From assembly GCA_028275165.1 (NCBI GenBank), contig JAQCNF010000044.1, forward strand, positions 1 to 64,000: DNA of 64,000 nucleotides, in the 5' to 3' direction. The notes under the pieces are model-generated. The model saw nothing but the letters and a program-made list of their open reading frames with translations. It was not told the DNA's origin and did no database searches. Shown piece after piece: positions 8,432 to 15,378 of this stretch (position 1 is its first letter; each line of letters begins with the position of its first letter). A program made the translations under genes and the position numbers. This DNA is from Haloquadratum sp. (GTDB taxonomy: Archaea; Halobacteriota; Halobacteria; Halobacteriales; Haloferacaceae).

Positions 8432-10273
8432 ATGGCCGAAAAGAAACCTCTCAACCGACGTCGATTTTTACAGGCAACTGGGGTAGCAGCAACGGTCGGA
8501 ATTGCAGGGTGCTCACAAGGAGGATCTGAAGATACGACCGAGACGAGTGGTCCGACAGGGACAGATATATCTGTTGAGTCGATTGAAGCATACCCCTACT
8601 CGCCTGGTGAAAATGATGTCCAGTCAGCCCAGCAGGTGATGGAAGCTGCTGGATATGGCCCGGATAATCGATTTGAATTGAGTTGGCTGCAGTATCAAAG
8701 CTCCACATGGGAAGAAATTGCAAATACCATCAGAGCACGACTTGAGTCGGCCTATATTGATATGTCGATTTCGCAGGCTGACTTTGGGTCGCTCTTGAGC
8801 CAGACTGAGAAGGGGAGTCACGAAGCGTTTACACTCGGATGGATTGCAGATTATCCAGCACCCCGGAACTTTCTTCAACTCGTTGACCCAGCAAATACGA
8901 TCTACGATGCAGAGGGAGCGACACCGAATGGAGCACGTCTATTTTGGGATAAAAATGCAAGCGAGGATAACTCTGTCAGAGCGGTCTTATCAGAGGAATT
9001 CGATCGCATCCAGAATAACCCCGAAGGAACTGAAAGTGCAAAACAGATTCGCGATGAAGCCGTCCTGAACATCGAAGAGGCCATCTGGGCCTCTGCAGCA
9101 CTATTACCGGTCTATCATGGTGTTAGCGATGCATTCTGGTACGACCGAGTTTCGTACGACCCACCAAAAGGTATGGGCGGGTCACGGGCAAAAGCGAATG
9201 TCTCTGTGGAGGAGTTAGCAGGGAAGTCACGACTACAGGGAATCTCGGCGACATTCAATTCGCTTGACCCAGTTGCTTCCGGCAATACAGCATCCGGTGG
9301 AAAAGTTATGAACATGTTCGATGCGCCGATGAACTATCCAAATGGTACGATCGAGGTTGAGAGTCTGTTGATAGAAGATTATACCGTTAGTGAGGACTTG
9401 ACTGAATATGAGTTTACACTGAAACAAGGAATGCAGTTCCACGGTGACTATGGGGAGGTGACAGCTGCGGATATGGTATATTCGATTCGCCGTCTCGTTG
9501 AATCAAACAATTCGACAAACTCATACTTTACAAATTCAGTCTTGAATATTGAACGAGAAGTCGATGAGGATGGAAATGTAGTTCCGGGTTCTGTCGGTGT
9601 CGAGCAGACTGGTGATTACAGTTTTACACTCAAGCTACAGCAACCGTTTAGCAATGCACTCTCCGTACTGGCATACTCTGCGTTCTCGGTCGTGCCTGAG
9701 GGAATCGTTGGTGATATAGAGGGATATGAAGGAGACATGGAGTGGGAGGAGTTTTCCACAAACCCCATTGGGTCAGGGCCTTTCGAATTTGTTCGATGGG
9801 ATCCAGGTAACGGCGGGTCCTTCCGCGTTGACCGGTTTGATGAGTATCATGGAGATGTCGCATCGATTGAAGGAATCGACGCACAGATCATTACCGACGA
9901 GACGGCAGCGTTCAACGCATTTCTGAACGAGAATGCTGATATAGCAGGTATTCCAACGTCCAAATTTGAGCCTGAGAAGGTATCGCTTGAGTCGGCTGAC
10001 GGGGCACAAGAGCGAGGGACGTATGGTCCATTAGAGAATGAAAAGACAATAAACATGTCACGAACACCCACCATTGACACCTTTTATATTGGGTTCAACA
10101 TGAGGAAAGTTCCAAAGCCAGTGAGACAGGCAATGGCGTATGTGATGAACCGTCCATCGTTTGTCGAGAGTGTGTTCAAGGGCCGTGGGGAACCAGCATA
10201 TCATCTCACACCAAAGCAAGTGTTCCCGGGGGGAGCTGATAGCTATGTCCAACATTGGCAGGGGAACGAATAA
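8432..10273 (+). CDS. dppA: Peptide ABC transporter binding protein (SBP_bac_5), apparently circularly permuted
   Basis: This 613-residue lipoprotein is the solute receptor of the transporter that follows. It has a twin-arginine signal (RRR at 9-11) and a lipobox ending at Cys27. The domain order is unusual. Residues about 53-253 correspond to the C-terminal part of family 5 binding proteins (YPYSPGENDV, then FTLGWIADYPAPRNFLQL). Residues about 266-613 correspond to the N-terminal part (LQGISATFNSLDPVASG through GFNMRKVPKPVRQAMAYV, ending PGGADSYVQHWQ). In ordinary homologues SYVQHWQ is followed by the YPY block, so the halves look swapped behind an intact signal peptide. Similar linkers (ISVE at 46-49, VSVE at 257-260) precede both blocks. 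The frame is open throughout. Substrate is probably peptides; dppA is a family-level name. Confidence 0.85.
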   Translation: MAEKKPLNRRRFLQATGVAATVGIAGCSQGGSEDTTETSGPTGTDISVESIEAYPYSPGENDVQSAQQVMEAAGYGPDNRFELSWLQYQSSTWEEIANTIRARLESAYIDMSISQADFGSLLSQTEKGSHEAFTLGWIADYPAPRNFLQLVDPANTIYDAEGATPNGARLFWDKNASEDNSVRAVLSEEFDRIQNNPEGTESAKQIRDEAVLNIEEAIWASAALLPVYHGVSDAFWYDRVSYDPPKGMGGSRAKANVSVEELAGKSRLQGISATFNSLDPVASGNTASGGKVMNMFDAPMNYPNGTIEVESLLIEDYTVSEDLTEYEFTLKQGMQFHGDYGEVTAADMVYSIRRLVESNNSTNSYFTNSVLNIEREVDEDGNVVPGSVGVEQTGDYSFTLKLQQPFSNALSVLAYSAFSVVPEGIVGDIEGYEGDMEWEEFSTNPIGSGPFEFVRWDPGNGGSFRVDRFDEYHGDVASIEGIDAQIITDETAAFNAFLNENADIAGIPTSKFEPEKVSLESADGAQERGTYGPLENEKTINMSRTPTIDTFYIGFNMRKVPKPVRQAMAYVMNRPSFVESVFKGRGEPAYHLTPKQVFPGGADSYVQHWQGNE

Positions 10274-10360: not shown

Positions 10361-11452
10361 GTGAACCGAGCACTCTACATTGTTAAGCGAATTATCTTAG
10401 CCATTCCAGTCGTTCTGTTTGGCCTGACGCTCACGTTTATTATTATGTATCGTGGACCGATCGACCCAGTGCTGTCAATTCTTGGACAGGATGCAAATCC
10501 TGAGGCAGCGAGACAGCTCCGGATTGCATTAGGGATAGCAAGACCAGATGGAACTCGAATTCCACTTTGGGAACAGTATGGGTTAATGCTCCGTGATATT
10601 ATGACGCTACAGTTTGGTCAGTCGTGGATCGTTCAACGCGGCGTGTCAGTGACCACAGTTATTACTGGCCGGCTTGCACCGACACTGTGGCTTGGGTTTT
10701 GGTCAGTCATGGTCGCGCTCATTATCGGAATCCCCGTTGGTCTCTATGCAGGATTGAAGGCCAACTCCTGGGGGGACTATCTCGCTTCTGGAGGGGGGAT
10801 TATTTGGCGAGCCATGCCAAATTTCTGGCTTGCAGTGATGATTGCCGGTAGCCTTTCCGCAGGCGGTATCCTCTCGTGGTATCGTGGGTTCTGGCTCGAC
10901 ACCGATGTGATCGGAACACCGGATGCGGTCAACAATCTCTTTCAAATGACACCCATATTCGATGGAATTCCAATCGTCAATGCAATCATCATTCCAGTGC
11001 CGGAGGTGCAGAATATGCTGGTCGCATTCAAGTGGATTCTTCCTGCTGCACTTGTACTTGGGTCGGCATCGATGGGGAACGAAATTCGGATCGGACGAAC
11101 AGCCGTTCTTGAGAGTATTAACGCAAAGTACGTTGAGACAGCACGTGCAAAGGGATGCTCTTCTCAGCGTATTATCATCAAACATGTCGGCCGAAATGCC
11201 GTCGTCCCGCTACTCCCGGTTATTATGGGTGAGTTTTATCTCTTGATTGGAGGGTCAGTTCTCGTTGAACAGATATTCAGTATTAACGGCCTCGGAAATC
11301 TGTTCTTTCGAGCAGTTCTCGGCCCTGATATTCCAGTTGTCATGGCATTAGTAACTATCTTCATTCTGATTCAGGTCTCGTTTAATATCATCCAAGATAT
11401 TCTCTATACGTACATCGACCCGCGAATTACACTTGAGGAGGCAAGCCGATAA
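10361..11452 (+). CDS. dppB: Dipeptide/oligopeptide ABC transporter permease DppB
   Basis: This 363-residue inner permease of the family 5 transporter starts with GTG. It has the characteristic first transmembrane segment (residues about 8-30), a conserved extracytoplasmic loop, and the EAA loop around YVETARAKGCSSQRIIIKHVGRNA. That loop contacts the ATPase. The last transmembrane segments end at YIDPRI, typical of DppB/OppB. It lies 87 bases after the binding-protein gene and two bases before dppC, so it is cotranscribed. Confidence 0.92.
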   Translation: MNRALYIVKRIILAIPVVLFGLTLTFIIMYRGPIDPVLSILGQDANPEAARQLRIALGIARPDGTRIPLWEQYGLMLRDIMTLQFGQSWIVQRGVSVTTVITGRLAPTLWLGFWSVMVALIIGIPVGLYAGLKANSWGDYLASGGGIIWRAMPNFWLAVMIAGSLSAGGILSWYRGFWLDTDVIGTPDAVNNLFQMTPIFDGIPIVNAIIIPVPEVQNMLVAFKWILPAALVLGSASMGNEIRIGRTAVLESINAKYVETARAKGCSSQRIIIKHVGRNAVVPLLPVIMGEFYLLIGGSVLVEQIFSINGLGNLFFRAVLGPDIPVVMALVTIFILIQVSFNIIQDILYTYIDPRITLEEASR

Positions 11453-11454
11453 GA

Positions 11455-13014
11455 ATGTGTGCTACCTACACGCCTGAGCAAGTTGATGAATATGAGCAAG
11501 AAGAACTGAGTTCAATCTCTGATCGATTGAGTGCAAACCCACAGCCAGCACTTCGATGGGCAACAGTCATGACGGCACTCGTGGGAGTTCAATTTGGGGC
11601 ATTCATAGGTGGGGTTCTCACTCTCATCGATGCAGCAGTTATTGCGATTACAGCACTGGTCGAGATTGCCGTGGGACTCATCTCGTCACCACTCGCCTCG
11701 GCAGTCGTTGACTTACAACGAATCGTCTCGGGAGCAATTGGCGGACTTCGAGATACAGCAGGATCGTTACCGACGCTACTCAGTCGTGAGACGATTCCGA
11801 ATCAGGGATATCTTCAGTCTGCTGATGGACCGTGGACAGGGACGTTCATGGGCGTTGAACCTGCGATTGCGTGGGCCTTGCGTGCCATATTAATTGTTGG
11901 ATACTCATTCGGTGTCCTCTACTGGCTATTTTATGGCTGGCAGGTGTTCAGAACACACTACCGACGGGCTTCATGGACACCGACAGACGATGTTATCGCG
12001 CGACTACGCGGCCATCGATGGGGACAATTCGGGATTTTCGTCCTCATTTTGTTCCTTACGATGGCAGTGTTCGGACCAGCACTCGGTCCAACGACAGTTG
12101 AGCAAAATATACAATCACCCTACAGCGCTCAGATGCAGTATTTTGATGCTGAGGATGGAGCGGTGAAAACCATCGCACCAGGAGACGCAAACTTCGAATC
12201 GAAGTCAAAAGGCTCAGTCGATCAGAATGTTGGTGTCATGCAGTATGATGCATATAACCGATTTCACCCGTTCGGGACACTCCCAAATGGCCGTGACCTA
12301 TTTACGTTTATGATGGGTGGTGCACGAATCACGCTCATCGTCGCAGGATTGGCTATCGGACTGGGGACGCTCATTGCTGCTTCGTTGGCACTCATTTCTG
12401 CGTACTACAGAGGACGCATCGACCTCGGGATTCTAACCACAGCTGATGGAGTCATATCTATTCCAAAGCTTTTGCTTCTCATTATGATTAGTGCCGTGTT
12501 CGCCGATCATTGGATTGCGCAGGCACTCGATGGAGGGCTATTGCTGGCACTGATTTTCGCTTTCACCGGATGGCCGTTCCTCTGGCGAGCGATTCGTGGG
12601 CCAGCATTCCAGGTCGCACAAGAAGCGTGGGTCGACGCTGCGAAGAGTTTCGGCCAGCCACCTCGGACAATAATGCGTCGACATATGCTACCATACCTGA
12701 CAGGATATCTCTTAGTGTATGCCTCGCTCTCGACAGGTGGTATTATTATTGGGCTCGCTGCACTCTCGTTTTTGGGTAATGGGCTTGGGATTACACCACC
12801 GACACCCGCATGGGGCCGGGCCGTCTCGCTAGGACAGAGTTACGTTGCCAGCCGTAGCTGGCACATTTCGCTTATTCCCGGGCTGATGATTGTGATCTTG
12901 GTAACGGGACTCAACGCCTTTGGGGATGGCCTCCGGGATGCGATCGACCCAGAGAGTGAGGGGACTCAAAATCAAGAACAAAATGCGACTGCGGGGACAG
13001 GAGGTGGTGGATAG
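11455..13014 (+). CDS. dppC: Dipeptide/oligopeptide ABC transporter permease DppC
   Basis: This 519-residue second permease has an extended N-terminal region (about 190 residues) containing extra hydrophobic segments before the usual N-terminal transmembrane helix near residues 198-217. The core contains the family segment FGTLPNGRDLF and the EAA loop AWVDAAKSFGQPPRTIMRRH. It ends in GDGLRDAIDPES, typical of DppC, plus a short Gly-rich tail. Long N-terminal extensions are known in haloarchaeal DppC. The stop codon shares one base with the GTG start of dppD. Confidence 0.92.
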   Translation: MCATYTPEQVDEYEQEELSSISDRLSANPQPALRWATVMTALVGVQFGAFIGGVLTLIDAAVIAITALVEIAVGLISSPLASAVVDLQRIVSGAIGGLRDTAGSLPTLLSRETIPNQGYLQSADGPWTGTFMGVEPAIAWALRAILIVGYSFGVLYWLFYGWQVFRTHYRRASWTPTDDVIARLRGHRWGQFGIFVLILFLTMAVFGPALGPTTVEQNIQSPYSAQMQYFDAEDGAVKTIAPGDANFESKSKGSVDQNVGVMQYDAYNRFHPFGTLPNGRDLFTFMMGGARITLIVAGLAIGLGTLIAASLALISAYYRGRIDLGILTTADGVISIPKLLLLIMISAVFADHWIAQALDGGLLLALIFAFTGWPFLWRAIRGPAFQVAQEAWVDAAKSFGQPPRTIMRRHMLPYLTGYLLVYASLSTGGIIIGLAALSFLGNGLGITPPTPAWGRAVSLGQSYVASRSWHISLIPGLMIVILVTGLNAFGDGLRDAIDPESEGTQNQEQNATAGTGGGG

Positions 13015-14054
13015 TGGCTCAAGAGCAAACACCAGTTCTGACAGTGGATAATCTCCAAACTGTTTTCCAGACCGAGCGTGAAACTATCCGAGCAGTTGAT
13101 GGGGTCAGCTTCAAAATCTTTCGTGGTGAAACTGTTGGCTTAGTCGGTGAGTCAGGATCTGGAAAGAGTGTGACTGCTCGATCAATCATGGGGCTTATCG
13201 AATCACCAGGGTCGATTCAGCCTCATTCATCGATTCGATTTAACGGAACAGAGTTGACCGAACTCGATGAGGCTGCGTATAATGAGATCCGCGGATCTGG
13301 TATTGGGATGATATTTCAAGATCCACAACAGTCACTAAACCCAGTCTATACCGTTGGAAATCAGATTACGGAGGCGCTCACGATTAATCGAGGTATTCGA
13401 GGAGCCGAAGCAACGAAACGTGCAAGAGAGTTGCTTGAGGCAGTCGCAATTCCCGACGCGTCGCGGCGATTAAACGAGTATCCCCACGAGTTCTCTGGGG
13501 GGATGCGTCAGCGGGCCGTCATTGCGATGATGCTCGCCTGTGACCCCGAATTCCTCATCTGCGATGAACCGACGACTGCGCTCGATGTCACAATTCAAGC
13601 ACAAATTCTCGATTTACTTGAGGACCTCAAATCAGATCGAGAGTTATCGATTCTATTTATTACCCATGACATGGGGGTCATCGCAGAAATCGCCGACAGG
13701 GTCAACGTTATGTATGCAGGTGAAATCGTCGAGCGTGCTCCTGTCAAGGAGTTGTTCTCGAATCCAGCACACCCCTACACGCGAGGACTTCTGTCTGCAG
13801 TTCCAAGAACAACTGAAACCGGAAGCGCCCTGGAGACCATCGAAGGAGAAGTCCCAACCCCACATACCGAGCCAACAGACTGTCGATTTGCTCCTCGGTG
13901 TCCGAAAGTATTCGATGCTTGTGAGGAGGTTCACCCACAGCATGTCGACGTCGGGAGTGGAAAAAATCACACCGCTTCGTGTCTTTTGTATCCCGAAGAG
14001 CACACAGAGTCAGACCGAATTAATATTCACGAAGAGGTCAACGAAGATGCGTAG
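13014..14054 (+). CDS. dppD: Peptide ABC transporter ATPase DppD
   Basis: This 346-residue ATPase energises the transporter. It starts with GTG overlapping the dppC stop (TAGTG). Walker A GESGSGKS is at residues 45-52, the ABC signature is SGGMRQR, and Walker B is FLICDEPTTALD. The C-terminal oligopeptide-transporter domain includes the cysteine-containing segment CRFAPRCPKVFDAC, which in relatives can bind an Fe-S cluster. The gene overlaps dppF by eight bases. Confidence 0.93.
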   Translation: MAQEQTPVLTVDNLQTVFQTERETIRAVDGVSFKIFRGETVGLVGESGSGKSVTARSIMGLIESPGSIQPHSSIRFNGTELTELDEAAYNEIRGSGIGMIFQDPQQSLNPVYTVGNQITEALTINRGIRGAEATKRARELLEAVAIPDASRRLNEYPHEFSGGMRQRAVIAMMLACDPEFLICDEPTTALDVTIQAQILDLLEDLKSDRELSILFITHDMGVIAEIADRVNVMYAGEIVERAPVKELFSNPAHPYTRGLLSAVPRTTETGSALETIEGEVPTPHTEPTDCRFAPRCPKVFDACEEVHPQHVDVGSGKNHTASCLLYPEEHTESDRINIHEEVNEDA

Positions 14055-15378
14055 TGCACGGTCACGACCAACAGAGAGCAACGTCGAAACGCTCATTCAC
14101 GTCGATGGATTGCGGACCTATTACGGAGGCGAAGGAGTACTTGCTGATGCGCCTGTCAAGGCGGTTGATGGCGTTGATTTCGAGATTCGGAGAGGCGAAA
14201 CATTTGGGCTAGTCGGTGAATCAGGATCAGGAAAAACGACGCTTGGTCGAACGCTGCTGAAACTTGAGGCAGCGACTGAGGGCTCAATTGTCTATGATGG
14301 GACAGACATTACAAGCTTGTCTGGGTCGTCGCTCACAGAGTGGCGTCAGAATGCTCAGATTGTGTTTCAAGACCCTGAGTCAAGTCTCAACGATCGTCTG
14401 ACTGTCGGAGCGATTATACGCGAACCACTGGAGGCACACGATTGGAGGACACCAACTGCACGGCGTCAGCGTGTAAGAGAGTTACTTGATGCAGTCGGCC
14501 TGACGCCTGCACATTATACACGATATCCACACCAATTTTCAGGTGGACAGCGACAGCGGATTGCGATTGCGCGCGCATTAGCGCTCAATCCGGAATTTCT
14601 TGTCTTAGACGAGCCGGTGAGCGCACTGGATGTAAGCGTTCAGGCTCGTATTATCCAACTGCTAGAGGAGTTGCAAGACGAATTCGGACTCACGTATCTT
14701 TTGATCGCGCACGATCTCTCAGTCGTTGAGCATATCTGTGATCGTGTTGCGGTCATGTACTTGGGAAAGATCATGGAAAAAGGCCCAACAGAGGCCGTCT
14801 TCTCGGAATCTGCTAATCCGTATACACATGCATTATTATCCGCAGTTCCAGAGCCAGACCCGACGAAGAATCCGAATCGTCTCACTCTTCGAGGGACACC
14901 ACCGAGCCCAAGAAATCCACCATCTGGATGTGTTTTTTCGACACGGTGCCCAGCAAAGATATATCCAGATGTTAGTGCTGACCTCTCGTATGAACAGTGG
15001 GATGTGATCGAGCAGATTCGTGCTGTGTTACGTGAGCGGGCACGCGATTCACAAAGCCTCTCTGAGCGGTTTCGACGGCGCGTTGGTCTATATCAACCAA
15101 CAGCGGGATTTGATGCAAGTATCGACGCTATTCGCGGTGATGTCAGCCTACCTGAGTCAGTCACTGAAACAATCGAATCAGCTCTTGCTACCGCCCGGGC
15201 AGGCTATCACCAACAAGCCGTCAGAGAGCTTGAAGAGACATTTAGTGGGATTTGTGAGAACGAGGTGCCAGCGACCCATGCTCAAAATGATGAGACCCAT
15301 GAAAGTAGGTGTCATCGGCATCGCGACACATATACATCAGTGCAAACTGTCATCAATGAGCGATTTAATCACCGCTAA
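14047..15378 (+). CDS. dppF: Peptide ABC transporter ATPase DppF
   Basis: This second ATPase has 443 residues from ATG 14047, which overlaps the end of dppD. The frame is open far upstream, but residues before this ATG are the dppD gene read in another frame. Walker A GESGSGKT is at residues 57-64, the signature is SGGQRQR, and Walker B is [12 protein letters not shown]. After the usual C-terminal domain ([10 protein letters not shown]) there is an extension of about 130 residues without recognised domains, longer than in bacterial DppF. Its 3' end overlaps the next gene by 23 bases. Confidence 0.92.

Follow-up and report, generated by a model that had tools for sequence, protein, structure and literature searches.

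A predicted circular permutation of a family 5 ABC-importer binding lipoprotein in Haloquadratum and independent chain rotations in its archaeal relatives

The 64,000-nucleotide stretch of a Haloquadratum sp. contig analysed here (the window) carries at positions 8432 to 10273 (+ strand) a gene for a peptide-binding lipoprotein in which the two parts of the mature domain appear to have changed places, raising the question of whether this is a genuine and working circular permutant of the family 5 binding proteins. The open reading frame encodes 613 amino acids from an ATG start without an internal stop, and the lipobox GIAGC is present, in agreement with the first-pass annotation, which had described the frame as open and the lipobox as intact. 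The product is divided into the following parts:

8432 to 8512 (+), residues 1 to 27: lipoprotein signal peptide of the Tat type, carrying an RRRFL motif and the lipobox GIAGC (sequence; positions 14 to 56 of the canonical-only profile described below)
8513 to 8587 (+), residues 28 to 52: Ser/Thr/Glu-rich flexible linker past the putatively lipid-anchored cysteine, containing ISVE and not conserved in relatives (class A alignment)
8588 to 9199 (+), residues 53 to 256: C-block, the canonical C-terminal part of SBP_bac_5 from YPYSPGE, now first (Pfam 251 to 360; canonical profile 412 to 619)
9200 to 9220 (+), residues 257 to 263: junction of the old C terminus and the old N terminus, 7 residues, with part of VSVE inside (gap between profile positions 619 and 74)
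9221 to 10273 (+), residues 264 to 613: N-block, matching the N-terminal and middle region of canonical SBP_bac_5 proteins, now last, ending in SYVQHWQGNE and the stop codon (Pfam 1 to 260; canonical profile 74 to 422)

Positions 251 to 360 of the Pfam profile SBP_bac_5 matched residues 50 to 151 (hmmscan), and positions 1 to 260 or 261 matched residues 308 to 607. The two halves score 41 and 165 bits alone, each above the family cut-off of 32.4 bits, and the whole protein scores 202 bits; the swapped order is also seen in a six-frame Pfam search of the window, and SBP_bac_5 is the sole Pfam match of the protein, without homology to type I/cluster B sugar-binding proteins. In a second profile of 626 positions, built only from 22 canonical haloarchaeal relatives, positions 14 to 56 (signal peptide) fall at residues 3 to 42, positions 412 to 619 at residues 42 to 256 (210 bits), and positions 74 to 422 at residues 264 to 610 (434 bits); the two blocks together cover the mature domain once, far above chance expectation. 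Both profiles, with the blocks aligned separately, thus confirm the earlier proposal that the C-terminal block comes first and the N-terminal block last. The curated cut-off for membership is passed, and the usual collinear N-to-C order is absent; since positions 412 to 619 precede positions 74 to 422, the protein is a rotated homologue and not a standard family member. It meets the description of a natural circular permutant, having all parts once, in rotated order, with the old termini joined and the new termini within the old chain. As judged from its sequence, the frame is a full circular permutation of the mature domain, with the signal staying in front; across the two joints the chain reads ...SVESIEAYPYSPGEN... 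and ...AKANVSVEELAGK...

The same order, from residue 1 to about residue 613, is found in Haloquadratum sp. J07HQX50 (99% identity), H. walsbyi J07HQW1 and J07HQW2 (72%), the isolate Halolamina salifodinae DSM 26232 (68%), and a Halodesulfurarchaeum metagenome-assembled genome (63%), and it recurs at about 50% identity in genome G053 and in further genomes; the suggestion of a natural permutation is supported by this occurrence in independent genomes. The window gene and that of J07HQX50 differ with dN of 0.0064 and dS of 0.083, and the J07HQW2 and J07HQW1 genes with dN of 0.037 and dS of 1.21; selection on this gene (class A, below) is purifying.

For the distribution of the rotated order, a junction profile of 167 positions (A1), composed of the old C-terminal end and the old N-terminal start, was searched in 392 Halobacteria genomes. 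Positions 1 to 167 were matched in one piece, or nearly so, by 74 proteins in 73 of the genomes (E ≤ 2.4e-50); the next matches begin only at about position 57 (E ≥ 1.2e-42), and the ones that were read through have the canonical order, so the fused proteins stand cleanly apart from canonical relatives. The canonical-only profile resolves three breakpoints, class A in 27 of the 74 proteins (including the window protein), class B in 45, and class C in 2. Considering all permuted proteins in hand and not only these 74, the first block starts at profile positions 411 to 424 in class A, 530 to 546 in class B, and 184 to 185 in class C, and the chain ends at positions 419 to 423, 531 to 544, and 187 to 190, respectively. 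Aligned on DppA, the breakpoints lie near residue 320 (A), residues 434 to 440 (B), and residues 116 to 127 (C); by the domain layout of DppA, A and B belong to the C-lobe and C to the N-lobe. All permutant types begin with the signal peptide, and the RR motif and lipobox pattern are found in all 30 class A, 43 of 45 class B, and both class C proteins. In nearly all of them the old ends are joined by a short linker of about 4 to 11 residues, whose length between profile positions 619 and 74 is 7 residues in 29 of 30 class A proteins. A second family 5 gene found in the window's genome (L006, contig C150) has the canonical order.

Downstream of the rotated gene, Pfam assigns the following genes:

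10361 to 11452 (+): permease 1, DppB-like, BPD_transp_1
11455 to 13014 (+): permease 2, DppC-like, OppC_N and BPD_transp_1, with a long N-terminal extension
13014 to 14054 (+): ATPase 1, DppD-like, ABC_tran and oligo_HPY
14032 to 15378 (+): ATPase 2, DppF-like, ABC_tran and oligo_HPY, start approximate

This is the ordinary permease-permease-ATPase-ATPase order of the Dpp/Opp type, and the operon is otherwise normal, as had been noted before. Across haloarchaeal loci read over a length of 18 kb, the rotated gene of classes A, B, and C heads genes orthologous to those at 10361 to 15378, with the exception of a kinase fusion (L142); nearly all canonical relatives likewise adjoin the first permease gene in 5-kb loci. 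One importer type would therefore work with canonical, A, B, and C proteins in different lineages. The DppC-like permease has about 170 extra N-terminal residues before OppC_N, and in the haloarchaeal operons examined this long form occurs whether the binding protein is canonical or permuted. In the DppF-like ATPase, the C-terminal cysteine region is enlarged by about 100 residues; the corresponding region of Escherichia coli DppF binds an iron-sulfur cluster.

Phylogenetic trees were built after every protein had been rotated back to the canonical order. Class A forms one clade (SH-aLRT 99; 100/100 in further trees), and its rotation would have occurred once, in the ancestor of that clade. 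Class B comprises one large clade and a separate protein (L113, genome G326) that is sister to a canonical protein (100/98), and a single class B clade is rejected by AU tests in two trees (p 8.9e-5 and p 1.3e-116). The two class C proteins are separate; a common clade is rejected by the smaller, careful tree (p 3.9e-4), whereas the large, quick tree does not reject it (p 0.08), and because the tests disagree, class C is counted as one or two origins. A gene on the minus strand of L129 (G275:C1:1150000-1155000) has the canonical order and is nested within the large class B clade (96/88); it is probably a return from the permuted to the canonical order. The haloarchaeal minimum is A once, B twice, and C once, plus the L129 change.

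A phylum-level search led to the Archaeoglobi, in which a further arrangement, type D, is found in three Archaeoglobus genomes (G506, G498, and G545): the chain begins with L/VKIELWW and, after AKEYL, closes with a short tail. Their congeners G494, G482, G605, and G632 have the canonical order, with blocks 84 to 88% identical to those of type D, and the DNA of type D and canonical Archaeoglobus genes is about 80% identical, the swap being visible in blastn. Genome G565 holds, besides a canonical protein, one of type D that shares only about 35% identity with the other three, which suggests another rotation event. In seven Archaeoglobi genomes, frames of 706 to 766 amino acids match the C-terminal and N-terminal parts in one piece, and the two that were read through are B-like. 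In type D Archaeoglobus loci (L172, L174, and L177), the binding-protein gene is divergent from the permease gene; in the canonical loci L164, L166, and L167 (G445, G518, and G437), it lies directly upstream of the permease gene in the same direction. A tblastn search of 72,556 plasmids with the type D junction (chromosomes were outside its scope) showed no bacterial permutant in its 15 best records, where the match falls into only two pieces across 1.4 to 1.6 kb, as expected for the canonical order. Counted by tree or by clear block order, there are at least five independent rotations (A, B, the second B, C, and D); adding the second C, the type D of G565, and the B-like Archaeoglobi proteins probably brings the number to about eight. 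Loops other than that of class A have been rotated independently: more than once for class B, one or more times for class C, and in Archaeoglobi for type D and probably for the B-like type.

Beyond the demonstrated rotated order, distribution, conserved operon, several origins, and purifying selection, we consider it highly likely that the window gene encodes a functional, naturally circularly permuted family 5 lipoprotein (cluster C, DppA/OppA-like) feeding a normal importer; its fold, function, ligand, and evolutionary route are inferred. The Tat-type signal would export the protein, with a lipid anchor at Cys27, and the chain would probably adopt the usual two-lobed shape, with its start in a former internal loop of the C-lobe, at about residue 320 of DppA. 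AlphaFold2 with six class A sequences only gave no usable structure (mean pLDDT 31), and the fold is therefore inferred from homology, namely the conservation of both blocks; among the best-matching solved homologues none shows the rotated order or spans the junction, and the two blocks match opposite chain ends. In DppA, an Asp binds the amino group of the peptide and an Arg its carboxylate (PMC12136057). The Asp of GWIADYPAP (residue 140, C-block) aligns with the amino-group ligand of E. coli DppA and is conserved in class A, and no counterpart of the carboxylate-binding Arg was seen by eye in the class A alignment. The ligand, probably a peptide, would be passed to the importer of four subunits whose genes follow directly downstream.

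The absence of functional data and the canonical order of the other family 5 gene found in the same genome leave room for a decaying or neofunctionalised protein that no longer serves the importer; we regard this as improbable, because dN/dS is low, both blocks are complete, the export signal is kept, its leading position in the transporter operon is conserved across families, and three different rotations share the same operon. Even less credible is a fusion of two separately folded half-domains instead of one rotated fold. The break does lie at an inter-element loop, and a short linker joins the blocks; however, the different breakpoints A, B, C, and D are hard to square with fixed half-domains, as is a junction of only about 4 to 11 residues. 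In the solved family 5 structures (DppA/OppA), the C-terminal block completes the lobes begun by the N-block, and thus neither half is a domain. An assembly error or chimaeric contig, formerly held to be the main alternative and conceivable in a metagenome-derived genome of 194 contigs and 73% completeness, can be excluded for practical purposes, since the identical architecture with its fixed 7-residue junction recurs in independent assemblies of other genera and families, including single-contig genomes and the Halolamina isolate.

Each rotation is likely to have arisen when the mature domain was duplicated in tandem and in frame and the outer parts were then lost, with the signal and linker kept in front; duplication followed by trimming is the standard model for circular permutation (PMC3320104). 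The route is only inferred, as no tandem-duplicate intermediate came to light, and neither the window nor the surroundings of the Archaeoglobus, class C, and L148 genes contain a remnant of either block. The similarity of ISVE and VSVE before the two blocks, read in the first-pass annotation as a trace of duplication, did not hold up as a scar: in the class A alignment even the nearest relatives do not share it and read SAESVEAYPY, SRPSSYPY, and EGHDSYPY before the first block. A 975-residue frame (L142:7364-10288, + strand; also L112, G193:C1, about 2520364-2523288) was considered as a double binding protein and rejected as a kinase-like fusion. In this frame a domain resembling protein kinases (PF00069, 24.6 bits, below cut-off) and a probable membrane segment are fused to a class B permuted binding protein, and the product is possibly a receptor kinase made from a binding protein. 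In L155 (G021:C13:488000-500000), two canonical homologues stand in tandem about 2 kb apart (at 2683 and 6708), a layout that could give rise to a permuted gene.

E. coli DppA and OppA (PF00496, cluster C) are homologous to both blocks of the window protein above the Pfam cut-off; they share with it the nature of a lipoprotein or secreted binding protein heading an operon of two permeases and two ATPases and, in class A, the amino-group Asp. Unlike them, the window protein has a rotated chain with new termini near DppA residue 320, and its lipid anchor leads into the C-lobe rather than the N-lobe. A different fold class already contains permuted binding proteins: in Treponema pallidum, TpMglB-2 (Tp0684), assigned to "cluster Bc," is a permuted cluster B lipoprotein that binds glucose and closes on its ligand (PMC4990184), and it therefore provides a precedent for a working permuted binding protein. 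It is likewise a natural circular permutation of a membrane-tethered binding lipoprotein of an ABC importer, but it is a type I/cluster B sugar binder with one breakpoint, an extra fourth hinge crossing, and a poorly conserved permuted part, whereas the haloarchaeal and Archaeoglobi proteins belong to cluster C, have several breakpoints, and are well conserved throughout. Saposins and swaposins and the DNA methyltransferases stand in the same relation between homologues, with duplication and subsequent trimming as the likely route (PMC3320104); in contrast to these, the export signal and linker stay in front and only the mature domain rotates, and rotations are repeated, with one probable return to the canonical order. 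As far as could be found in open-licence full texts, permuted cluster C binding proteins have not been reported.

The authors of the TpMglB-2 study proposed that tethering may favor a permuted topology (PMC4990184); the haloarchaeal and Archaeoglobi proteins would be tethered as well, which fits this idea without proving it. Whether chain rotation in tethered archaeal binding lipoproteins has been selected rather than neutral is doubtful, and we entertain selection only as a tentative possibility. If it were true, moving the anchor from the N-lobe to the other lobe or to another loop would change how the protein is seated over the permease, and lineages would switch topology repeatedly, with several gains and the probable G275 reversal, while the importer remains unchanged. 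The inferred difference among these permutants is the point at which the anchor joins the fold. As a rule, natural circular permutants come to light one at a time, whereas here a single family associated with one conserved importer has at least three haloarchaeal breakpoints and more in Archaeoglobi, and closely related canonical and permuted orthologues coexist within one genus. Profile-based annotation hides such proteins, which are labelled merely "ABC transporter substrate-binding protein." Chain order in this binding-protein family is far freer than might be expected, and the family allows a direct test of which termini and anchor positions are tolerated in a Venus-flytrap binding protein and of whether permease docking depends on where the anchor sits.
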